This document shows, piece by piece, positions 45,266 through 59,714 of a stretch of 64,000 nt of DNA (position 1 is the first letter of the stretch; each line of letters begins with the position of its first letter). The DNA comes from Ruegeria sp. YS9. GTDB taxonomy: Bacteria; Pseudomonadota; Alphaproteobacteria; Rhodobacterales; Rhodobacteraceae. The stretch spans positions 3,094,001-3,158,000 of the forward strand of contig NZ_CP102409.1 in assembly GCF_024628725.1 (NCBI RefSeq), written 5' to 3'. The notes under the pieces are model-generated. The model worked only from the letters and a program-made list of their open reading frames with translations, was not told the origin of the DNA and did no database searches. Position numbers and translations under genes: made by a program.

Positions 45266-46240
45266 TTACCTTTGTGGGACGAAGTTCTCGGCAAAGAACC
45301 GGTACCAGTTCCTGCCCATGATCCCGGCCACTTCGTCATCGTTCAGGCCGGTCGCGCGTAACCCTTTTTCGATGTTTCCAAAGTCTCGGTTGTCCTGAAA
45401 CCAGCCCGGCATCGGTGGGAATCCCGGAGCCGAGGCCGAGCCTTCGCCATAGTCGATTTCTTTTGTCCAACGCCCCACACGCATCCATTCCACGACGCTG
45501 TCGGGCTGATCCTGACACAAGTCAGTGCCGATCCCCAGATGTTCGGCCCCGTATTTGTCGGCAGTGCGGGCGATCATTTCGCAGAAGCTCTCCAGCGTGC
45601 AATCGGACTTGTCTTTCAGGTGGTGAGGGTAGACCGAAAAGCCCAGCATCCCACCTTTTTCCGTTACCGCGCGGATGACGTCATCCCGCTTGTTGCGCAG
45701 GGCCGGGGACCATTCGTGCGGATTGGCATGTGTAATCGCGATGGGCCGGTCCGAGACTTCAGCCGCCTCGATCGTGGAACGGTCTGCCGAATGGCTCATG
45801 TCGATCACAAGGCCCACGCGGTTCATCTCTTTGATGACCTGCTTGCCCATGCGGGTGATGCCGGTGTCTTCGGCCTCGTAGCAACCGGTCGCCAGCAGGG
45901 ATTGGTTGTTGTAGGTCAGTTGCATGAACCGCGCGCCCAGATCGTGCAGGATTTCGACCAGCCCGATATCGTCTTCAATGGGCGACGGGTTCTGAAATCC
46001 GAAAAACACGGCGGTCCGGCCCGTTTCGCGTGCCGTGTCGATGTCGCTGGCCCACCGGCCTTTCATGATCAGATCCGGGTATTGCTCGAACCAGCGGTTC
46101 CATTTCTCGAAATTCAGAACCGTTTCGCGGAAATTCTCATGATAGGAGATGGTGACGTGGATCGCGTCCACGCCCCCTTCGCGCAGCTGGCGGAAGATCT
46201 TTTCCGACCAGTTGGCATATTGCAGGCCGTCGATCCGCAT
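45266..46240 (-). CDS. M19 membrane dipeptidase (renal dipeptidase) family protein
   Basis: A 324-aa metallopeptidase of the M19 family. Zinc-site regions can be seen: VDAIHVTISYHEN near the N-terminus, VIDMSHSADRSTIEAAE, PIAITHANPH and the late GIGTDL. Members hydrolyse dipeptides, including those with D-residues, and some act on non-peptide amides. No signal peptide is present, so it is cytoplasmic here. The start touches the aldehyde dehydrogenase stop by 1 nt. Confidence 0.88.
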   Translation of the reverse strand: MRIDGLQYANWSEKIFRQLREGGVDAIHVTISYHENFRETVLNFEKWNRWFEQYPDLIMKGRWASDIDTARETGRTAVFFGFQNPSPIEDDIGLVEILHDLGARFMQLTYNNQSLLATGCYEAEDTGITRMGKQVIKEMNRVGLVIDMSHSADRSTIEAAEVSDRPIAITHANPHEWSPALRNKRDDVIRAVTEKGGMLGFSVYPHHLKDKSDCTLESFCEMIARTADKYGAEHLGIGTDLCQDQPDSVVEWMRVGRWTKEIDYGEGSASAPGFPPMPGWFQDNRDFGNIEKGLRATGLNDDEVAGIMGRNWYRFFAENFVPQR

Positions 46241-48787: not shown

Positions 48788-51700
48788 ATGTCTCAAGACC
48801 TGAGGGGCTGGCTGAGCGCAAATGGATTGAACGAGTACGCGCAGGCCTTCATTGACAACAAGATCGACTTTTCCATTCTGCCAGATTTGACGGCAGAGGA
48901 TCTGATCGAAATCGGCGTGACTGCTGTCGGCGATCGTCGGCGGCTTTTGCGTGCCATCGAGCAACTTGATTCCACCCACACCGCGGCCGAACCTGAACCA
49001 ACGGCACCGCATGAACCCGCGCGGCGGCAGGTCACGGTGATGTTTGCTGACCTGACCGGGTTCACGAAAATTTCCAGTGAGCTGGATGCCGAGGATCTGC
49101 ACGCGCTGCTCAATCAGTTCTTCAGCAAAGTGGACAATGTGGTCGAAAAATACGGCGGTCGTATCGACAAGCATATTGGTGATGCGGTCATGGCTGTTTT
49201 CGGGGCGCCGATCTCACATACAAACGACACCGAAAGGGCAGCACGCGCTGCGGCTGAAATTCACGCGGTTCTTTCGACGTTGTCGCCGCCGCTTTCCTGC
49301 CATATCGGCATCTCTTCGGGTCAGGTCATTGCCAGTACAACCGGCAGCCAGTCACATACGGAATACACGGTGACAGGAGATGGCGTAAACTTGGCCTCCC
49401 GTCTCACGGACATATCAGCGGCAGGGGAAACGCTGGTCTCACATGACATTCAACGCGCGCTGGGTCCGTTGTTCGTGGGCGACTCCATCGGGGTCAAGGC
49501 GATCAAGGGGCTGAACGAACCAGTTGAGGTCTGGCGTCTGGACCGGCTGGCCAGGAACATTCGAACGAGACGGCACAAATTCATCGGGCGCGAGCGCGAG
49601 ATGTCGATTTTCTCGGCCACATTCGACCGATGCCAACGCCATGGCAAAGGAGAAGTTCATATCGTTCTGGGCGAACCCGGAATTGGAAAAACCCACCTGT
49701 CCGAGCAGGTGGCGGAACTGGCCACCAACCTGTCCTACAAAATCCACAACGGCGTTGTGGTGGATTTCGGTGCGCGCGAAGGTCATTCAGCCATTCAGAC
49801 CGTCGCCCGCAGCATTCTGGGACTTGAAGCGTCAGATGGGGCGGAAACAGGGGCGGCTGTCGCAAAAGACGCGATCAGCAGGGGCTGGGTCAGTCCTTCC
49901 AACGCCGCGCATCTCAATGCCTTGCTTGAGCTTGAGCAAGACCCGGGTCTGGCCGAGGTCTATGCCGTGATGGACAACAAGACCCGTCTGCGAGGACGGC
50001 GTCAGGTTCTTGAGGAACTGCTTTCGGCCAGCAGCCAGGAATCGCCCCTACTTATTCAGATTGAGGACATCCACTGGGCGACCCCTGACATCCTGACGGC
50101 CTGTTCGCATATCGCCGCAGCGACGCGGAACATTCCCTGTGTGTTGATGATGTCCAGTCGGGCCGAAGGCGATCCGATCGACAGGGACTGGCAGATGGCG
50201 ACGGACGGCGCGCTGGTGTCAAAGCTGGAACTGGCGCCAATGGGAGAGGAGCATGTCAGACAACTGGTCGAAGAGTTCCGGGCCATCGATCAGGATTTGC
50301 TGGAGACATGTGTCCAACGGGCGGGCGGCAACCCGTTGTTTCTGGAACAGCTGTTGCGCAACACAGACGTACTCAAGCAGGAAAGTGTGCCCGGAAGTAT
50401 TCAGGGTATCGTCCAGTCGCGATTGGATGCGTTGGATCGCGCCAGTCGAACCGCCCTTCAGGCCGCATCGGTTCTGGGGCAAAGGTTCTCGCCCGAAGTT
50501 CTGAATTTCGTTCTGGGCGAAGGACATCTGGATACGAGTAACCTGATCCGGTCGGCGCTGATCCGAGAGGCCGGACCTGATCTCATGTTTGCCCACGCGC
50601 TGATCCGGGACGGGTCCTATGCTACTTTGGTCAAATCCGAACGGGCCCGTCTGCATCGACAGGCGGCACAGTGGTTCGAGGATCGAGACGTCACCTTGCG
50701 CGCCCAGCATCTGGACCGGGCCGGGGCCAATAACGCAGCGCAAGCCTATCTGGAGGCTGCGGATAAATTGATCCAAGCCTTCCGGTTCGACGATGCCAGC
50801 CCGCTGATCGAGCGTGCTTTGGAATTGCCGTCCCCGGCGGGTGTCCGATTTGACCTGCTGTGCGCGCGGGGCGAAACGCATCGGTTGCAGGGGTTGTCAA
50901 ACGAAGCTTTGGACGAGTTCAAGGACGCGGCCAGTTTGGCGGAAACCGATGAACAAATCGCCCGGGCCCATATCGGGCTGGCGCAGGCGGCGCGGCAAGC
51001 AAGCCTGTATCAGGACGCGCTGGAAGCGCTCGACATTGCTGAGGCAGCAGCACAGCGCTGCGGGTCCGAGGAAGATGAGGCCCAGATAAGCTATGTGCGC
51101 GGCAACGTCTACTTCCCGCTGGGACGGAACAAAGAAGCGCTGAAGGCCAACGAGCGGGCGCTCTTGCTTGCCCGCAAACTGGAATCCCCGCGCCTTGAAG
51201 TTGGGGCGCTGAGTGGGTTTGGCGACGCCAATTTCATGAAAGCCTCGATGAAGACGGCGGCGGGGTTCTATACCCAAGCCGCTGAACGGGCGCGTGAAAA
51301 AGGGCTGGTTCGGGACCTTGCGGCAAATCTGCACAATCTCAGCGTGGCGCGCAGCTATACTGGGGATGTCGGTCAGGGCCGAGCAGATGCCAATGAGGCG
51401 ATTGAAATCTCGCAGACGTATTTCGCATTTGTTCCGGAATGTGTTGCGCAAACATGTCTTGGTGTGGCCGAAACCTTTCTGGGCAGTCTCGACCGTGCGC
51501 TTGAAGCCTTTGGCGTCTCTGCCGAAATTGCCGAGCGCGTGGGCGCAAAACGCCTTGAAGCGCAGGCGTTGGAACACATGGCCAGAACGCAGGTTTATGC
51601 CGGCCAGGTTGGGCGCTCACGTGAAACCGGTCTGCGAGCAGTCGAAATCGCGCTTGAACATGGCCGGAATTTTGTTGGACCCAAGGCCCTGTCAGCACTG

Positions 51701-52063
51701 GCGATGGCCGAAACGGACCCGGATGAGCAAACACGCCTTTTGAAACTGGGTTCCGAGATCATCGCTGAGGGATGTGTCGGCCACAGCCATCTACATTTTT
51801 TCCCCGATGCCAGCGCTGTCATGCTGGCGCGCGGTGATTGGGATGCCGCAATTGAATATGCGGATGGGCTTGCCGCGTTCACCAAGAATGAGCCTTTGCC
51901 AATGGTTGACTTGTCCATTCGTCAAGCACGGCTATTGGCCGAGAGCGGGAAGCAGAAAATCCCACCCTCACAACATAGCGGATTTGCCGATCTGAATGAG
52001 CAGTTTGCAGCAATGGGCATCACGCAATCGTTGCTGGGCCGAGCGGATTTTCTGGCGGAATAG
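48788..52063 (+). CDS. SAM domain, class III nucleotide cyclase, AAA ATPase and TPR fusion
   Basis: A 1091-aa signalling protein. Residues 1-60 form a SAM domain (DLRGWLSANGLNEYAQAFID). Residues 80-235 are a class III cyclase catalytic domain with metal aspartates Asp88 (MFADLTGF) and Asp132 (HIGDAVMAVFG) and the transition-state pair Asn201/Arg205 (GDGVNLASRL), so it should be active. An AAA/STAND-type ATPase follows, with Walker A GEPGIGKT at 295-302, and TPR-like repeats fill about 620-1040. ATP cyclisation to cAMP is likelier than GTP for this architecture. The ion channel gene follows 20 nt downstream. Confidence 0.9.
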   Translation: MSQDLRGWLSANGLNEYAQAFIDNKIDFSILPDLTAEDLIEIGVTAVGDRRRLLRAIEQLDSTHTAAEPEPTAPHEPARRQVTVMFADLTGFTKISSELDAEDLHALLNQFFSKVDNVVEKYGGRIDKHIGDAVMAVFGAPISHTNDTERAARAAAEIHAVLSTLSPPLSCHIGISSGQVIASTTGSQSHTEYTVTGDGVNLASRLTDISAAGETLVSHDIQRALGPLFVGDSIGVKAIKGLNEPVEVWRLDRLARNIRTRRHKFIGREREMSIFSATFDRCQRHGKGEVHIVLGEPGIGKTHLSEQVAELATNLSYKIHNGVVVDFGAREGHSAIQTVARSILGLEASDGAETGAAVAKDAISRGWVSPSNAAHLNALLELEQDPGLAEVYAVMDNKTRLRGRRQVLEELLSASSQESPLLIQIEDIHWATPDILTACSHIAAATRNIPCVLMMSSRAEGDPIDRDWQMATDGALVSKLELAPMGEEHVRQLVEEFRAIDQDLLETCVQRAGGNPLFLEQLLRNTDVLKQESVPGSIQGIVQSRLDALDRASRTALQAASVLGQRFSPEVLNFVLGEGHLDTSNLIRSALIREAGPDLMFAHALIRDGSYATLVKSERARLHRQAAQWFEDRDVTLRAQHLDRAGANNAAQAYLEAADKLIQAFRFDDASPLIERALELPSPAGVRFDLLCARGETHRLQGLSNEALDEFKDAASLAETDEQIARAHIGLAQAARQASLYQDALEALDIAEAAAQRCGSEEDEAQISYVRGNVYFPLGRNKEALKANERALLLARKLESPRLEVGALSGFGDANFMKASMKTAAGFYTQAAERAREKGLVRDLAANLHNLSVARSYTGDVGQGRADANEAIEISQTYFAFVPECVAQTCLGVAETFLGSLDRALEAFGVSAEIAERVGAKRLEAQALEHMARTQVYAGQVGRSRETGLRAVEIALEHGRNFVGPKALSALAMAETDPDEQTRLLKLGSEIIAEGCVGHSHLHFFPDASAVMLARGDWDAAIEYADGLAAFTKNEPLPMVDLSIRQARLLAESGKQKIPPSQHSGFADLNEQFAAMGITQSLLGRADFLAE

Positions 52064-52083: not shown

Positions 52084-53247
52084 ATGAGCGTCGAAGGAAA
52101 GGTGTGGCTTATCTCGGGTTTGCTGACCTTTGGGTTGGCCGCTTTGTTGCTCAAGCTTTGGATCGAACTGAACCACTTCGAAGGAGACCCGACGCAACTG
52201 CCTGACCAGGCTGCGGTAGATGCATATCTGTGCAAGCTGGACGTTGCACCGGACTACCGTTTGAGAACGGGGATTTTCATAAAGTCTTTCAGCTTTCTTG
52301 GCGCCAGCGATGTACAGCTCACCGGCTATATCTGGCAGCACTACAAAGCAGGTGAACATGACGCGATCATTCCTGCCGAAGGTGAGGCCGGGTTTCTTCT
52401 GCCCGAAGCGGTCGATACGGCAAACGGCCTTATCGAACAGGCCTATCGGTTGCCGCAACCCGACGGCGTTTTGATTGGTTGGTATTTCGAACAAACTCTG
52501 CGCCAGAGCTTCGACTACACCAGTTACCCGTTCGACCACAAAACGGTTTGGGTACGGTTCTGGCCGGCCTCTTTTGAGGCCAACGTCGCGCTGGTTCCTG
52601 ACTTCGACGCTTATCCGGCGACCGGACCGGATGACATTTTTGGGATCGACAACCGGATCGTGATGGGCACGTGGGAGCGTGAAAACACCTATTTCGATTA
52701 CAAGCTGTCAAATCTGGATACGACGCTGGGCATCCGGCAGAATGCTTACCAGACCAACACGCCCGAGTTGCATTACAACTTTGTCATCAAGCGCAATTTC
52801 GCAAACGCGTTCATCGTGCACATGATTCCATTGCTTGTTGTGGTGATGCTGCTGTTCGGTGCGGTCATGACCGTCACGCGCCGCGAGGGTCTGGTAGAGC
52901 GGCATGACTTCAGCACGTCCAGCGTGATCGGCACCTGTTCGGTTCTGTTCTTCGTGATCCTGCTGGCCCATGTGCAACTGCGCGAAGGGTTCGCCGGATC
53001 GCCCGTGATCTACATGGAGTCGTTCTTTTTCCTCATGTATTTCATGCTGCTGGCGGTTTCGATCAACACCTACCTTTTCGCGTCCGAGGCGGTACCGTCG
53101 CTGCGGATCATCCATTATCGGGACAACCTGATTCCAAAGGCCAGTTTCTGGCCTTTCGTGCTGCTGTGCATGGTGGCGATCACGGCCTATAATCTCAGCA
53201 TCAAGAACAGTTCCGAACCGCCACCGATCAGCACGCGAGAGTGTTAG
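52084..53247 (+). CDS. Prokaryotic pentameric ligand-gated ion channel homologue
   Basis: A 387-aa membrane protein. After an N-terminal hydrophobic segment (7-28, signal or anchor) comes a roughly 205-residue beta-rich domain with the pLGIC Pro-loop hallmark YPFDHKTVWVRFW (148-160). Four C-terminal helices follow at about 239-262, 276-296, 308-333 and 355-372. RNFANAFIVHMIPLLVV resembles the pre-M1/M1 region, and the M2-M3 spacing matches GLIC-like channels. It lacks the eukaryotic disulfide Cys-loop, as other bacterial members do. It shares an operon with the cyclase gene; its ligand is unknown. Confidence 0.75.
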   Translation: MSVEGKVWLISGLLTFGLAALLLKLWIELNHFEGDPTQLPDQAAVDAYLCKLDVAPDYRLRTGIFIKSFSFLGASDVQLTGYIWQHYKAGEHDAIIPAEGEAGFLLPEAVDTANGLIEQAYRLPQPDGVLIGWYFEQTLRQSFDYTSYPFDHKTVWVRFWPASFEANVALVPDFDAYPATGPDDIFGIDNRIVMGTWERENTYFDYKLSNLDTTLGIRQNAYQTNTPELHYNFVIKRNFANAFIVHMIPLLVVVMLLFGAVMTVTRREGLVERHDFSTSSVIGTCSVLFFVILLAHVQLREGFAGSPVIYMESFFFLMYFMLLAVSINTYLFASEAVPSLRIIHYRDNLIPKASFWPFVLLCMVAITAYNLSIKNSSEPPPISTREC

Positions 53248-56200
53248 GCCACCGGTTCAAACCCGGGTTTGGGTTCGCCCTGCGCCATATCCAGCGTATA
53301 GTCGCTCACCACTTCGGATGTGCCCTCGCGCCAGCTTTTCAGGTACTTTTCCGGATCCGCGATTACATAGGCATAAGCGGGTTTCATCGCCCCCTCGACG
53401 ACGACGTTGATCTTCTTGCGCACATAGACATTCTCGGGTGAGCCGGGGCCGTGATACCCCTCCAGCCTGTCCAGTTCGCCGAGGCCGGATTCGGTGACAC
53501 GGTAGACCTCTCCAACCACTTGCTTGCCCATCCCCTGCTGATCCACAAGGGTTGCCATGCGATGCAGATATCCACAATTGGGATTGTCGCAGAATGGTTC
53601 CTTCGGGATGATCAAGGGCATCGGTTGCCGGGTGCGCGCCGTTCCCACGAAGTCGTTCAGAACTTTGCTGTGTGCGTCATGATTGGGGAATCCCTGCTTC
53701 AGGGATCCATAGGTGAAATACAGGTAAGAGGGTTCTTTGACGGCCACGAAGCTTTCGTTGCGCCCCTGTTCGGGGTCTGCCATCTTCAGGTTGTGATCTT
53801 GCGCCCATCTGTCCAGCATGGAACGGATTTCCGGTTCGATCTGCATGCCCTGAACGAACTCGATGCACGGGGTCGCATCCATGTCATCAGCACCCAGCAG
53901 AATCTCGACCATCTTCGGCGCCTTGTTCATCACCGCCACATGCAGCGCCGTGAACCCGTGGTCATTGACGATGTTGACGTCGATATCCCGGTCGATCAGG
54001 TCCTGGGCGGCCTCATAGTCGGGCTTGCCCAGATCATGGCCGCTTTCGCCCAGTTCGCCTTCACCGCCCGCTGCATAGTGCAACAGTGAATCTCCGTGGG
54101 CCTCGTCCACGATGTTGACGCCGACCACGCCTTCGTCGATGGCGCGGAACACGCGCTTCCATTCGTTGATGTCATCGGCGGCGGCGGCCTCGCGCGCCCA
54201 TTTGCAGACGCGATACTTCTGGTCGTCCAATTCCTCGAACGCATCCGCCAAAGCTTCCATGATCTGGTCCGGCGTTGCCATCATGCCGATGCCCATCCGG
54301 CCGTTCGACAGGCGACCTTCGCGCGGTCCGACGAAATCGACCCCAAGCGTCCTAAGCTTGTCGACGTTGTTCTGCGTGGTGATATTGTTCCACATATTCG
54401 TATTGCAGGCGGGGCAGAGGATCACCGGTTTCTTCTGATATTGCCAAGCCACGAAGACCGAGGTCAGAAGGTTGTCGGCGATGCCATTGGCAACCTTGCC
54501 CATCGTATTGCAGGTAATGGGGGCCACGATGACGCAATCTGCCCAGTCACACAGCGCCAGATGCGAAGCGCGCACCGGCATGTCGAACTTCAAATAGCGG
54601 AAATTCCATTCGTCGTCGTCGCGGTAATAGTCGTTATGGGTGATCTTGGCGTCGATCCGTTCGGCCCCGAAATCGCGAAAGAATTTCTCGGCCGAAACAG
54701 ACGGGATCAGTTTCACGTTATGCCCCGCATCGACGATGCGTTCGACCAGCTCGGGGATCTTGTCCGCCGCCGACGACCCGCAGGCGCAGAGCAATACGTT
54801 TCGCTTTCCGGCGTTTACCTGATTCATCACCCCTTTTGGGTAGCCGAAGGGGTTTTTCTCAAGGCTGGGGGTTTCGTTCAGATCGGATACCGGCAGCCCT
54901 TCCTTGCGCATCCTGGCCTGCAATTCACCGACCTGGATCATGTCGACGATGTCTTCCAGCTTTTCGCTTTTGCTGATGCATTTCCCTTTGAAAAACAGAT
55001 ACGGCACGTCCGGTCTTTCCCCAAGCGTCACCAGTTGCCGCCGCATCCTGATCATATTGGGATCCCGCCCGCCCACGTCGATCTGCTTGACGGTCGTTGC
55101 CCCGATATTCGAAAGAATGCTGCGCAGCATATAGGACCACGGGTCCTCGTCCTCGTAGAACAGAACCATCGTATTGTGCTTGATGATGCTGGCAACATCG
55201 CTTGGGTTTTCGGGCGGCTCGACCTCTTCGATCACCAACAATGCAGGGTCTTCGAGATCCCGCAGACCACGGAAAATGTTGCCGCGCGGCGCTTGCCAGA
55301 CCTGCGAGGTCGCCGGACTCATATCAACTATGGTCACAACGTCTTCATCCTCGTCATAGTCTATGCACAGGCACCAGAACTCTTCCAGCAACGCAGTTTC
55401 CCGAAACACGTTGTCCGGCGGGCGGATCGCCTCGATCCCGGTGACGCGATTGAAGTCGATGTTGATCATCAGGTGGCGATTGCTGTTCGTGGTCAGGCTT
55501 TTCAACTGCGCCTTGAACCAGTCCTCGGGGGTCTGGATTGATTTGTCGTCACGGGTTCCAAAGCTGTGGAACGAGCTGCTCAGATGCAGGTTCTCGGATT
55601 GTCTGATATACTTTTCGACCATGTCGTGCATGTCTTTGGCGGTGGCGACCCGGCGGACAGTATCCGTGAACGACACCTGGGCCGCCCGCAGCAACTCGTC
55701 CTCGTCCACCCTGTAGTCGCCGTGAATGGCGAGGCTTTCCACCAAAACGCCGATCGAGTTCATGTTGGGGGTCGCCCGGCGGAACAGGTTGCGGCGTTTC
55801 TTGGGGTCTTTCGCCAGATAACGTGTGCTGTCGACGTAGTTGCACCGCTGCTTGAAGGTCTTCAGATGCGTCTTGACCGCTGCCCGTGCTGAAAACCGCA
55901 ACAGGCCGCGGGACCGCATCGAGGTTCCATCACGATCCGACATGGCTTGCCACAACCGTTCGACGGTTGTCACCCAAAGCTTGCCGTATTTTTCAGGGTG
56001 CACATCCATCATATGCACCAGCCCCGTGCTTGGATTGCACTTGGCGATGACGGCAAAATGGCCGCCGGGCATGTTCTCTTTGCCATGGGCAAGACCGACC
56101 TGGAAATTCGCCACCAGAATGTCGTTGTCACCGCCCAGCCGGTTGGATTCGTCGATCGCCTCAAGCAGCAGAGGCACACTGGTTGTGTCTTCGTCCATGA

Positions 56201-56843
56201 AATAGGCCTGAACCTGAACCCTCTCGCGCAGCCCCTGCGTGTGAATGTAGGTGCAGGCGACGTCAAAAAGCTCGCCCAGCGAGATTCCGTCGTTCACGAC
56301 AAAGGACGAGGGCAATGCGCATTCGCGGAAGATGTCATTGACTTCGCAGCTGAACCCCAGCGCCGACATGCTGAGAGCGGCCGCCGTGACGCTGCAACAA
56401 TTGATTGGCTGCTGAAAGTTCTGCAACTGAACGCTGACCAGATCACCAAACATCGTTGCAAAACAGGGTTGCCGGACGCTCTCTGGTATCTGAAGCCAGT
56501 TCTTGCTGGACAGATACGCCAGCCGGGTTCCATCCAGCGCAAGCGCTTCAAGGCTGACAGGTATATCCGAGATTTGCAGGTGTTCTTCATAGAAGTAATC
56601 ACCGACATCCGCGCTGGCCAATGGATTCCCGTTCTGGCGCAGCTTAACCACGCCGCGCAGCACGATATACATGCCGTTCGCCGGCAGAACCGCGTTGCCG
56701 GTCACTTCGATACATTCGAATTGTGGGTTGATGACGGCTGGGTCGGCGATCTGAGCCTTGCCCGGAAGGACATCATATATCATCTTCCAGTCTGCGTCGC
56801 TTGGGGTGTAAGGTCTGGATTTGGAAATTTGATCTATGGTCAC
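53244..56843 (-). CDS. Seven-module fusion: phytochelatin synthase-like, cysteine decarboxylase-like, gamma-glutamylamine cyclotransferase-like
   Basis: A 1199-aa protein starting at GTG 56843 (GGGGGGA 8 nt upstream). Modules: cNMP-binding-like (about 30-118, MYIVLRGVVKLRQNG) without a clear phosphate cassette; phytochelatin synthase-like (140-305) with Gln144, Cys150, His262 and Asp280, the last two spaced 18 apart as in plant PCS; a degenerate second copy (355-540); a glutaredoxin-like fold (556-645) lacking CxxC; an HFCD flavoprotein (680-870) with His761, APITCNT, and PACNTNMW; ankyrin repeats (890-985); and an AIG2/GGACT domain (1038-1165) with YGSLKQG and Glu1128. It converges on the channel gene with a 4-nt overlap. 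A glutathione-to-aminothiol pathway is inferred. Confidence 0.85.
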   Translation of the reverse strand: MTIDQISKSRPYTPSDADWKMIYDVLPGKAQIADPAVINPQFECIEVTGNAVLPANGMYIVLRGVVKLRQNGNPLASADVGDYFYEEHLQISDIPVSLEALALDGTRLAYLSSKNWLQIPESVRQPCFATMFGDLVSVQLQNFQQPINCCSVTAAALSMSALGFSCEVNDIFRECALPSSFVVNDGISLGELFDVACTYIHTQGLRERVQVQAYFMDEDTTSVPLLLEAIDESNRLGGDNDILVANFQVGLAHGKENMPGGHFAVIAKCNPSTGLVHMMDVHPEKYGKLWVTTVERLWQAMSDRDGTSMRSRGLLRFSARAAVKTHLKTFKQRCNYVDSTRYLAKDPKKRRNLFRRATPNMNSIGVLVESLAIHGDYRVDEDELLRAAQVSFTDTVRRVATAKDMHDMVEKYIRQSENLHLSSSFHSFGTRDDKSIQTPEDWFKAQLKSLTTNSNRHLMINIDFNRVTGIEAIRPPDNVFRETALLEEFWCLCIDYDEDEDVVTIVDMSPATSQVWQAPRGNIFRGLRDLEDPALLVIEEVEPPENPSDVASIIKHNTMVLFYEDEDPWSYMLRSILSNIGATTVKQIDVGGRDPNMIRMRRQLVTLGERPDVPYLFFKGKCISKSEKLEDIVDMIQVGELQARMRKEGLPVSDLNETPSLEKNPFGYPKGVMNQVNAGKRNVLLCACGSSAADKIPELVERIVDAGHNVKLIPSVSAEKFFRDFGAERIDAKITHNDYYRDDDEWNFRYLKFDMPVRASHLALCDWADCVIVAPITCNTMGKVANGIADNLLTSVFVAWQYQKKPVILCPACNTNMWNNITTQNNVDKLRTLGVDFVGPREGRLSNGRMGIGMMATPDQIMEALADAFEELDDQKYRVCKWAREAAAADDINEWKRVFRAIDEGVVGVNIVDEAHGDSLLHYAAGGEGELGESGHDLGKPDYEAAQDLIDRDIDVNIVNDHGFTALHVAVMNKAPKMVEILLGADDMDATPCIEFVQGMQIEPEIRSMLDRWAQDHNLKMADPEQGRNESFVAVKEPSYLYFTYGSLKQGFPNHDAHSKVLNDFVGTARTRQPMPLIIPKEPFCDNPNCGYLHRMATLVDQQGMGKQVVGEVYRVTESGLGELDRLEGYHGPGSPENVYVRKKINVVVEGAMKPAYAYVIADPEKYLKSWREGTSEVVSDYTLDMAQGEPKPGFEPVA

Positions 56844-57174: not shown

Positions 57175-58752
57175 TCAGTCGAGGAAAAGATAATCCAACT
57201 GCATGATGGCTTGGGCTTTGTCTTCACCAACCCCAAGAAACCTGGCAATAACCGCTTCGTTCTCGGCGCGCGGGGCTGTTTCCCGCAGGCGCAGGTAATT
57301 GTCCAGCCGGGCGGCACGGATCCGTTCGGATTCATAGCCCAGATCGTTGCGAAGGGTCGGCAGCAAGGAAGCAACGGTTTCCGTTGGACTGTTGTCTCCG
57401 GCCAGCCCGACGCGACGCGCGTGGCCGATCAGATAATCGTCCGAGTATTCGCATTCGATCTCAAGCACGTGGGTTTTGGCCTGGTCGCCGCAGAAATCCT
57501 CGAGCGCGTCAAGATTGGCCGGGTCAAGGCACAGCACCAGCTGATCCGACCCGAAACTGTCGAACAACAGGCGCAGAACGGCGCGCCGGTGACGAGAGCG
57601 CTTGGTCAGTGTGGATTCGATCCCGCCCAGGTCCGGCAGCAACGTGTTTTCTTCGTTGAACAGGTATTCGACGCAAGGAATATCCGTTTCAGATGCGATC
57701 TGATCGACAAGACGTTTGGCGACATGCCATTTCTTGCAGACGATCACGAACAGTTCCCGTTCCGGGCCGAGTACGCTCCCGGCTTCCCAGAAGCGTTGTC
57801 CGAACCGGCGGCCGATGCGTCCGCGACCGGTGAGAAACGCGTACAGATTGCGCCCCTCGTTCGAGATCGGGAAATCGACGCCCTCACTTGCATAGAGCGA
57901 ACCGAGCCGGGCCTTCAACTCATGCGCCTCGGCGCTGATCTTGCGTGCGAACAGATAATCCTGGCCCAGCAACATGTCATAGTGGTCATTGTAGAACGTG
58001 ACCGGCATTCCATAGTCCGAAAACATCAGGAATGTCGGCGTTCGGTTTTCAATCTCGTTTTTCGGGATCAGGTGACGCACCAGCGTCTGAAAGAAGGTTT
58101 CATCAGGGATCCACGTGGTCGAAAAAAACCGTATCACATCCCGGCGCTGACGCAGGAAATCCAGAATCATTTCGACGGTTCTGCGACGCAGGCACCACCA
58201 TTGGCTGCCGATCATCATCTGAATGTCCTGGGGGATGTCCCGCGTCAGACCGAAGCGCTTCTGCAATTCATAGGCGGCATAGAACAGCTTGGACTGCGTA
58301 CGTTCGTTGAAGTAGTGGCGATAGATCAACCGGTCTTCTTTCATGCCGGTCTTGATCCAGTTGCTTTCAAAGAAATCGTGGCTTTCGATGAAATCCTTGT
58401 CGTGATCGTCGAGGTAACGGTGCGTGTATTCAGCGGTTTTGATCGCCATGCAGTCACCGGACAGCATGTAGAAATGCGTGGCGCGGGGGAAGGTTTCCAC
58501 GGCGGCTTGCAGGGCGTTCAGCGTGGCCTGCACCAGCGACCATTCTCCCCAGCCGCATCTGACGCGCTTTTTCGCAAAGGTAACATTGGGGTTCTGATCC
58601 AGTGCGGACCGAATGCGCTCATAGGCTTCGGTGCTGGCGCTGGCGTCAAAATGGATGGCCATGCAATCGCCGACAGCTGTCAGTTGTTCGGCCTGAGCAA
58701 TGATGGCCTCAGGGTCCTTGTGACACAGCAATATATAGGCGACTTTTGCCAT
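57175..58752 (-). CDS. GT14-type beta-1,6-N-acetylglucosaminyltransferase-like protein with DUF5928
   Basis: A 525-aa protein starting at 58752 (MAKVAYILLCHKDPEAII). The N-terminal half is a core-2/I-branching-type glycosyltransferase (GT14): HFYMLSGDCMAIK, GSQWWCLRRRTVEMIL and IPDETFFQTL are characteristic. The C-terminal part matches what is called DUF5928 in roseobacters. It may add amino-sugar or xylose branches to a surface glycan. It is divergent from a sulfotransferase gene, and both may decorate the same polymer. Confidence 0.82.
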   Translation of the reverse strand: MAKVAYILLCHKDPEAIIAQAEQLTAVGDCMAIHFDASASTEAYERIRSALDQNPNVTFAKKRVRCGWGEWSLVQATLNALQAAVETFPRATHFYMLSGDCMAIKTAEYTHRYLDDHDKDFIESHDFFESNWIKTGMKEDRLIYRHYFNERTQSKLFYAAYELQKRFGLTRDIPQDIQMMIGSQWWCLRRRTVEMILDFLRQRRDVIRFFSTTWIPDETFFQTLVRHLIPKNEIENRTPTFLMFSDYGMPVTFYNDHYDMLLGQDYLFARKISAEAHELKARLGSLYASEGVDFPISNEGRNLYAFLTGRGRIGRRFGQRFWEAGSVLGPERELFVIVCKKWHVAKRLVDQIASETDIPCVEYLFNEENTLLPDLGGIESTLTKRSRHRRAVLRLLFDSFGSDQLVLCLDPANLDALEDFCGDQAKTHVLEIECEYSDDYLIGHARRVGLAGDNSPTETVASLLPTLRNDLGYESERIRAARLDNYLRLRETAPRAENEAVIARFLGVGEDKAQAIMQLDYLFLD

Positions 58753-58895
58753 AGAGATAACGCAATATCCGTTTCTGCCTGATTTCAACCGTGATACTGA
58801 GGATGAACGATTGAATAAACAGAATAATTTTGGTTCTTTGTAACCAAAAGCTGGCGTATCGCATCGAGACCAGGCCAGCGGAGGAGGCACAGCAG

Positions 58896-59714
58896 ATGGG
58901 GTTTCCCGGTACCTGGATGACCGAGAGCGAAAGCATGGTGTACCGTGTGGTGCCCAAATGTGCCTGCTCGACCATTGGTCAGATCATGTATTTTTCGGAT
59001 CACGGCCAGTTCTTTGACGGTGATATCCATGATGCCAAGGACGGCATGCACAAATGGGCATTTGATCAGAGCCAGGAGCTGATCTCGAACAACGTGCGCA
59101 ATCACGCATCCTATTCGTTCACTTGCGTGCGCAATCCCTACACCCGCATTCTCAGCTCATTCTTTGACAAAATCTGCGGCATTCAGCGCAACGGCAAGAG
59201 ATACCGCGGCAATCTGGTGCCGACGCTGATCTACAACTACGGGATCGAAGTGGGCGGTGACGACGGCAAAGGAGAGTTTGACCAGATCGCCAGCTTTCGC
59301 CGGTTTCTGCTGTTTGCGCGTGATACGATCCGGTGGCGGCGCCCGATGGACCCGGACATTCACTGGTCTGCGATGTCAGGCCACGTGTCTACTTTCATCG
59401 TGAACGGCGGTCACTATGACCGGATATTCTGGACAGAAGCGTTCAATGACGGGATGCAGGATGTTCTGGACAGTGTCGAGCTGAAGCACCCGGTCAAATT
59501 GTCCGAGATCCCACGGTTCAATGAATCCGAAGGGCACGGACCAAAACGTGCGCATCCGGTTGAAGACTACTTTGACGATCTGTCAATGCATCTGGTCTAC
59601 GAGATCTACAAGCAGGATTTCGAGCTGTTCAAATACGACTTCGAAAACCCGGCCAACAAGATGCCGATCGGCGAAATCGATCTGGACGAAATCCACGCCA
59701 AACTGGGCGACTGA
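58896..59714 (+). CDS. Sulfotransferase family 2 protein
   Basis: A 272-aa PAPS-dependent sulfotransferase. The 5'-phosphosulfate loop is VVPKCACSTIGQIM and the 3'-phosphate site TCVRNPYTRILSSF. ATG at 58896 is preferred because GGAGGAGG precedes it; TTG at 58830 is possible. Members of this family sulfate carbohydrates. With the divergent GT14 gene it suggests synthesis of a sulfated surface glycan, as expected for a marine bacterium. Confidence 0.85.
   Translation: MGFPGTWMTESESMVYRVVPKCACSTIGQIMYFSDHGQFFDGDIHDAKDGMHKWAFDQSQELISNNVRNHASYSFTCVRNPYTRILSSFFDKICGIQRNGKRYRGNLVPTLIYNYGIEVGGDDGKGEFDQIASFRRFLLFARDTIRWRRPMDPDIHWSAMSGHVSTFIVNGGHYDRIFWTEAFNDGMQDVLDSVELKHPVKLSEIPRFNESEGHGPKRAHPVEDYFDDLSMHLVYEIYKQDFELFKYDFENPANKMPIGEIDLDEIHAKLGD

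Follow-up and report, generated by a model that had tools for sequence, protein, structure and literature searches.

Glutathione is the cell's main antioxidant, and three enzyme families bear on how it may be taken apart at the locus studied here. Phytochelatin synthase (PCS)-like enzymes leave gamma-Glu-Cys with its cysteine exposed, HFCD flavoproteins decarboxylate an amide-linked terminal cysteine, and known relatives of gamma-glutamylamine cyclotransferase (GGACT) act preferentially on gamma-glutamyl amines that lack an alpha-carboxylate. The aminothiol cysteamine is known to arise usually by hydrolysis of pantetheine. Here we describe a gene of Ruegeria sp. YS9 that encodes modules of all three families in one protein. 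It lies in a stretch of 64,000 nucleotides (NZ_CP102409.1, positions 3,094,001 to 3,158,000), hereafter the window, from whose first letter window coordinates are counted.

We propose that the three modules of this fusion act in turn on glutathione to yield 5-oxoproline and an aminothiol that would most likely be cysteamine, and we give this reading an even chance of being right. It is based on the modules and their predicted folds, on conserved catalytic residues, on retention of the set in fused, permuted and split forms, and on linkage to genes for a nucleotide cyclase and a membrane protein; from these we infer the substrates, the order of reactions, the product and the regulation. Because the catalytic residues are nearly invariant, the best reading of the route runs from glutathione through gamma-Glu-Cys and its decarboxylated form to the aminothiol and 5-oxoproline. 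Each module comes from a known family. For the assembly itself, or for a route from glutathione to an aminothiol, full-text searches of the open-licence literature returned no description (one elsewhere is possible), in line with a preliminary description of this DNA that knew of no such protein or pathway; the term "gamma-glutamylcysteamine", so spelled, was likewise absent from the literature searched. If the proposal is true, there is a direct route from glutathione to an aminothiol in bacteria and perhaps in some protists.

Module composition of the fusion protein

The preliminary description had called a single 1199-residue protein at 53244..56843 without stating its strand. One open frame on the (-) strand bears this out, the (+) strand of the same interval being interrupted by stops. 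The gene and its parts are:

53244..56843, (-): fusion gene, 1199 aa, GTG start, one open frame with the stop codon within the coordinates
56484..56726, (-): cyclic-nucleotide-binding (CNB)-like part, approximately residues 40-120; Pfam cNMP_binding E 0.0084, below cut-off
55878..56438, (-): PCS1, phytochelatin-synthase-like module of papain fold, residues 136-322; Q144, C150, H262, D280
55209..55841, (-): PCS2, second, degenerate PCS module, residues approximately 335-545; catalytic Cys and His apparently replaced by N362 and F489
54894..55196, (-): glutaredoxin-like domain without active-site Cys, residues 550-650; weak NCBIfam matches (E 0.08-0.16), PDB 3uiw at E 0.021
54231..54809, (-): HFCD flavoprotein (cysteine decarboxylase-like) module, residues 679-871; H761, C778, C813, N814, M817, N847
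53802..54227, (-): ankyrin repeats, residues 873-1014 by fold matches; Pfam Ank 2e-7, its matches being stretches inside residues 910-986
53265..53735, (-): GGACT module, residues 1037-1193; YGSL 1045-1048, E1128, C1085/C1090/H1094

The Pfam families Phytochelatin (PF05023; residues 144-313, E 5.4e-11, 42.6 bits against a gathering score of 24.9), Flavoprotein (PF02441; residues 682-868, E 3.5e-27) and GGACT (PF06094; residues 1042-1165, E 1e-14) were all matched above their gathering cut-offs. Membership is also marked by the Cys/His/Asp set and oxyanion Gln in PCS1, by the fold, active-site His and PxxNxxMW motif in the HFCD module, and by the fold, YGSL and catalytic Glu in the GGACT module. 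The residues and motifs on which the preliminary description had built (Q144, C150, H262, D280, H761, E1128, PACNTNMW, YGSLKQG) all occur where it placed them, with PACNTNMW beginning at residue 811, YGSLKQG at residue 1045 and a spacing of 18 between H262 and D280. The predicted folds likewise match PCS-like, HFCD and GGACT modules.

The remaining parts (the CNB-like N-terminus, the degenerate second PCS domain, the glutaredoxin-like domain and the ankyrin repeats) had been overlooked. In the structure model PCS2 has the same order of helices and strands as PCS1. By hhalign, PCS2 matched an ordinary cyanobacterial PCS with a probability of 97.6, and PCS1 with a probability of 39.4 from a narrower 18-row alignment and 97.9 from a more diverse 21-row alignment; the latter was picked after the lower result, and its value is therefore no blind test. 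N362 and F489 were assigned as the Cys and His equivalents by reading the alignment, and PCS2 is, judged from its sequence, a pseudo-enzyme. The glutaredoxin-like domain has no Cys at residues 562-575 in 74/76 members, the window protein included, and has one in 2/76; an active glutaredoxin is ruled out by this missing cysteine.

Conservation of catalytic residues and the proposed route

Conservation was counted over 103 sequences, any with a local score below 120 for a domain being left out of that domain's count. In PCS1 (n = 90), Q144, N148 and C150 were present in 86 (4 unaligned), H262 in 90 and D280 in 87, with Glu in the other 3. The HFCD module (n = 87) retained H761, C778, N814, M817 and N847 in 86 (1 unaligned), while position 813 was Cys in 85 and Met in 1 (1 unaligned). 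E1128 of the GGACT module (n = 79) was found in 78 (1 unaligned), and C1085, C1090 and H1094 in 79/79.

These residues suggest the following mechanism. In PCS1, C150 would be acylated with gamma-Glu-Cys and the acyl-enzyme then hydrolyzed, so that glycine is cut from glutathione. The HFCD module would bind flavin mononucleotide and, through H761, N814 and M817, oxidize and decarboxylate the amide-linked cysteine of gamma-Glu-Cys; C778 and C813 may help to reduce the resulting ene-thiol, replacing the absent CoaC-type cysteine. Finally, GGACT would release the small aminothiol, most likely cysteamine, plus 5-oxoproline. Since relatives of GGACT prefer amines without an alpha-carboxylate, this module could act only after decarboxylation. 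PCS2 and the Cys-less glutaredoxin-like part perhaps hold glutathione or an intermediate, which is a guess.

It could be speculated that the flavoprotein module is not catalytic, or that it acts on another cysteine-ended amide, leaving the fusion as a glutathione-degrading scaffold that makes no aminothiol. Hal3 proteins have regulatory roles, and the loss of the clamp cysteine described below would suit a Hal3-like regulator. However, such a regulator would have no need of H761, N814 and M817, which are kept in every aligned member (86/86, with 1 more unaligned), and the GGACT glutamate is retained as well; we consider this explanation highly improbable.

Architecture and distribution of the family

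The family was taken as 86 proteins (P0001-P0086), the boundary at P0086 being our choice from the match list. Its lists are lower bounds, as sequences were scored among the approximately 8000 candidates with most shared words. The module order of the window protein recurs in 67/86, and its combination of modules is thus no chance joining. The others comprised four HFCD-Ank-GGACT-PCS1 proteins (P0071, P0072, P0076 and P0081), six HFCD-Ank-GGACT, three PCS1-PCS2-Grx-HFCD-Ank in which GGACT was not found, two Grx-HFCD-Ank, two HFCD-Ank, one PCS2-Grx-HFCD-Ank-GGACT and one PCS1-PCS2-Grx-HFCD (Grx, glutaredoxin-like; Ank, ankyrin repeats). Domains below the score threshold are missing from this tally, and some of the short proteins may reflect contig ends. 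Because four relatives carry the permuted form, what is conserved is the set of modules and not their order. The HFCD part seems to extend to protists, since two family members, P0078 and P0082, belong to a collection of eukaryote proteins (eukprot).

A quick HFCD tree took in the window protein, 29 of the 86 family members, with P0076 as the permuted form, and 15 comparison proteins. It separated the family from the CoaBC comparison set with support 99*, the program flagging long branches at that split.

The PCS1-PCS2 part also stands by itself, in four cyanobacterial bins (L044-L047). For L047 (genome G004), separate genes for Grx-HFCD-Ank (488 aa) and for GGACT (162 aa), which overlap by 4 bp, were found on a second contig; this bin thus holds the complete set as three genes, a binning error being possible. 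Among 201 genomes of the cyanobacterial family it alone had the HFCD half at E <= 1e-40. A FIST protein, a GAF-cyclase and a 195-aa frame precede the HFCD-GGACT pair. The island (L064:7227-13140; genes for OsmC, FIST, GAF-cyclase, Grx-HFCD-Ank and GGACT, with transposase-like genes close by) has a GC content of 45-52%; most flanking kilobases have 62-72%, and those at 2-5 kb also 53-57%.

Fusion genes were found in 31/54 genomes of the genus and in 5/394 genomes drawn from the taxonomic family. A single contig scan, for which two short peptide patterns served as seeds, picked up 54 loci. The fusion is present at 41 of them (L003-L043), including two that run off contig ends and are incomplete. 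These are mostly from Ruegeria, with Seohaeicola, Roseivivax, Roseibacterium, a Roseovarius bin, other alphaproteobacterial bins or cells and two gammaproteobacterial bins also represented. On viral contigs, 12 pattern matches included no relative. The Ruegeria sp. YS9 genome has one full copy, and the closest relative among the matches listed, from Ruegeria sp. HKCCD6228, is 98% identical.

Taken together, folds, conservation and the permuted and split forms support the module identities and catalytic residues of the preliminary description, and with them the logic of its route from glutathione to an aminothiol.

Evidence against the route and the clamp position

Several observations weigh against the route. 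The preliminary description had equated the order of modules with the order of reactions, which does not hold generally given the HFCD-Ank-GGACT-PCS order of 4/86 relatives. P0068, P0069 and P0075 combine PCS and HFCD without GGACT. In three cyanobacterial bins with PCS1-PCS2 (G001-G003), searches for the HFCD half gave CoaBC-level matches or none, in bins and contigs that may be incomplete. One gammaproteobacterial bin (L053:9620-13060) has the PCS1-PCS2 tandem fused to EF-hand and glyoxalase-like (VOC) domains instead of HFCD and GGACT. The structure model has a predicted template modelling score (pTM) of 0.49, and its arrangement of domains is uncertain. A search of the genome with PF07847 (cysteamine dioxygenase family) gave no match, its control being likewise silent. 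Finally, the clamp cysteine by which CoaC-type enzymes complete their reaction, C175 of AtHAL3a, aligns with N847 of the fusion, and the position is Asn in 86/86 aligned members.

As judged from the alignment, this loss is the single strong argument against plain CoaC-like chemistry. The comparison set was 62 CoaBC-like proteins (P0087-P0148), some of them without the CoaB domain. There, position 778 is Ala in all 62, position 813 is Met in 60 and Ala in 2, and position 847 is Cys in 39, Ser in 20 and Thr in 3 (counting by motif, Cys in 32, Ser in 18 and no motif in 12). An ordinary CoaC was ruled out: the equivalog cut-offs were missed (126.6 against 219.7 and 94.3 against 261.4 bits), and the genome has a separate CoaBC-like gene, which aligns only with fusion residues 680-865 (34%).

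One possibility is that the route is the same but that the flavoprotein module halts at the oxidized ene-thiol, like EpiD, so that GGACT would free aminoethenethiol, or mercaptoacetaldehyde and ammonia as its breakdown products, in place of cysteamine. By its title, PDB entry 1mvn is a C175S mutant of AtHAL3a that holds pantothenoylaminoethenethiol, so AtHAL3a can evidently stall at the ene-thiol once the clamp cysteine is lost; the invariant Asn847 would fit such an outcome. On the other hand, a cysteine at this position is not universal in the CoaBC-like set, as 23/62 have Ser or Thr there, and C778 (86/86 aligned) and C813 (85/86) lie in the active-site motif loops as natural candidates to stand in for it. 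We regard the stalled reaction as possible, although on the unlikely side. With the clamp cysteine changed to Asn and two new cysteines in the active-site motifs, the product may therefore be cysteamine or its ene-thiol. Of the free cysteamine-type product foreseen in the preliminary description, the logic of an aminothiol holds up, while full reduction to cysteamine is not assured.

Neighboring cyclase and membrane protein genes

Two genes converge on the fusion gene from the other strand:

52084..53247, (+): 387-aa membrane protein, predicted pentameric ligand-gated ion channel (pLGIC), convergent with the fusion gene, 4-bp stop overlap
48788..52063, (+): class III nucleotide cyclase with SAM, AAA and TPR domains, 1091 aa; Pfam Guanylate_cyc 1.3e-22, SAM_1, AAA_16, TPR_12

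The cyclase gene ends 20 bp ahead of the channel gene. Among the 41 fusion loci the cyclase is present in 34, the membrane protein in 33 and both in 33; the 7 loci with neither belong to six alphaproteobacterial bins or cells and a Halieaceae bin, several being near contig ends. The fusion, the membrane protein and a close cyclase (at least 72% identity, other cyclases in genus genomes being at most 42%) occur in the identical 31/54 genus genomes. The three genes thus form one linked block, and the 31 genomes are not 31 independent events. In 6 examined of the 23 genus genomes without the unit, the flanking XRE, ilvD, sulfotransferase-like and glycosyltransferase genes are retained, and the 18-19 kb stretch holds no match to any of the three genes of the unit at more than 50% identity.

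Other gene orders were also seen. At L036 the cyclase is followed by the fusion on one strand. The same order on one strand recurs in a Sulfitobacter-type unit (G146; L080:2001-13349), where the cyclase (30.8% match), the fusion and then an MscS-type channel lie between two look-alike genes that we take to be transposase-like. In a gammaproteobacterial bin (L024) the fusion, cyclase, a SnoaL-like gene and a channel lie on one strand; this channel, which adjoins the SnoaL-like gene (L024:10695-12866), is a relative of the predicted pLGIC and has an N-terminal dCache sensor domain. The channel frame is split in two pieces in Ruegeria intermedia (L021:13657-14853), and genome G628 has one TAG inside the channel gene.

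Two further genes lie near the unit. At window positions 57175-59714, a Core-2/I-branching glycosyltransferase gene with DUF5928, present in 54/54 genus genomes, adjoins a gene that we presume to be sulfotransferase-like. The gene at 45266-46240, which we take to resemble M19 membrane dipeptidase, occurs at 4 loci of the neighbor clustering including the window and is not a conserved neighbor.

The linkage to a cyclase argues for regulation of the fusion, whose CNB-like part mostly lacks the phosphate-binding Arg. In a cyanobacterial relative this part matches Pfam cNMP_binding at E 1.9e-6. Position 96, presumably the usual Arg of the phosphate-binding cassette, is Arg in 1/76 members, position 97 in 2/76 and position 98 in 1/76, and none of these is Arg in the window protein; a canonical cAMP-binding domain is ruled out by this near-absence.

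Another explanation is that the fusion is a cyclase-controlled effector: under stress, a cyclic nucleotide would activate it through the CNB-like part, and its true job would be the fast destruction of glutathione. The cyclase adjoins the fusion in most loci and in more than one gene order, presence in the genus is patchy, the Sulfitobacter-type unit is flanked by transposase-like genes, and PADLOC matched the cyclase to Pycsar cyclase (PycC) models together with weak TPR matches. However, PycC models are matched by class III cyclases in general, PADLOC recognized no Pycsar effector (its one hit to the fusion was weak and to ankyrin, and the channel had no hit), the phosphate-binding Arg is nearly absent and seven loci show no cyclase. 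Moreover, destroying glutathione needs neither a decarboxylase nor GGACT, and we think this explanation improbable.

The proposed aminothiol route could instead be extended to a signaling unit, in which the fusion makes cysteamine, cysteamine opens the neighboring channel and the cyclase converts the event into a nucleotide signal. Residues 52-375 of the channel are predicted to form the beta-sandwich extracellular domain and four transmembrane helices of the pentameric fold. No sequence profile in Pfam or PDB matched it, and a PDB sequence search with a distant channel relative gave 6 unrelated matches (E 0.07 and worse). In one study, cysteamine was the compound to which the related bacterial channel ELIC gave its strongest low-dose response, with a half-maximal effective concentration of 0.365 mM (PMC3119659). 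We consider such a unit doubtful. If it is true, a bacterial member of the nicotinic-receptor superfamily would have a natural source and a natural ligand; the route itself, if true, would make it testable why ELIC responds best to cysteamine.

Comparison with known systems

The neighboring channel shares a predicted fold with ELIC and GLIC over residues 52-375. It differs from them in an extra N-terminal helix, in its linkage to a cyclase and an enzyme and in having no detectable sequence similarity to either.

Alr0975 of Nostoc, a PCS-like glutathione hydrolase of PF05023, is a single domain, to which the fusion adds a degenerate second copy, HFCD and GGACT. GGACT/A2LD1 stands alone, whereas here the module is fused, with the C1085/C1090/H1094 set kept throughout.

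From the HFCD proteins AtHAL3a/CoaC and EpiD the fusion differs in the change of the clamp Cys to Asn and in its position in the tree apart from the CoaBC set. In its motifs, the Ala of the PASANT-type motif is C778 and the first Met of PxMNxxMW is C813. It resembles CoaBC in that an HFCD domain is joined to a second enzyme, and a 2021 report (PMC7794376) described CoaBC as unique, among the HFCD proteins whose structures are known, for its multiple domains. In CoaBC, however, the partner is a CTP-using ligase, while in the fusion the partners are PCS and GGACT.
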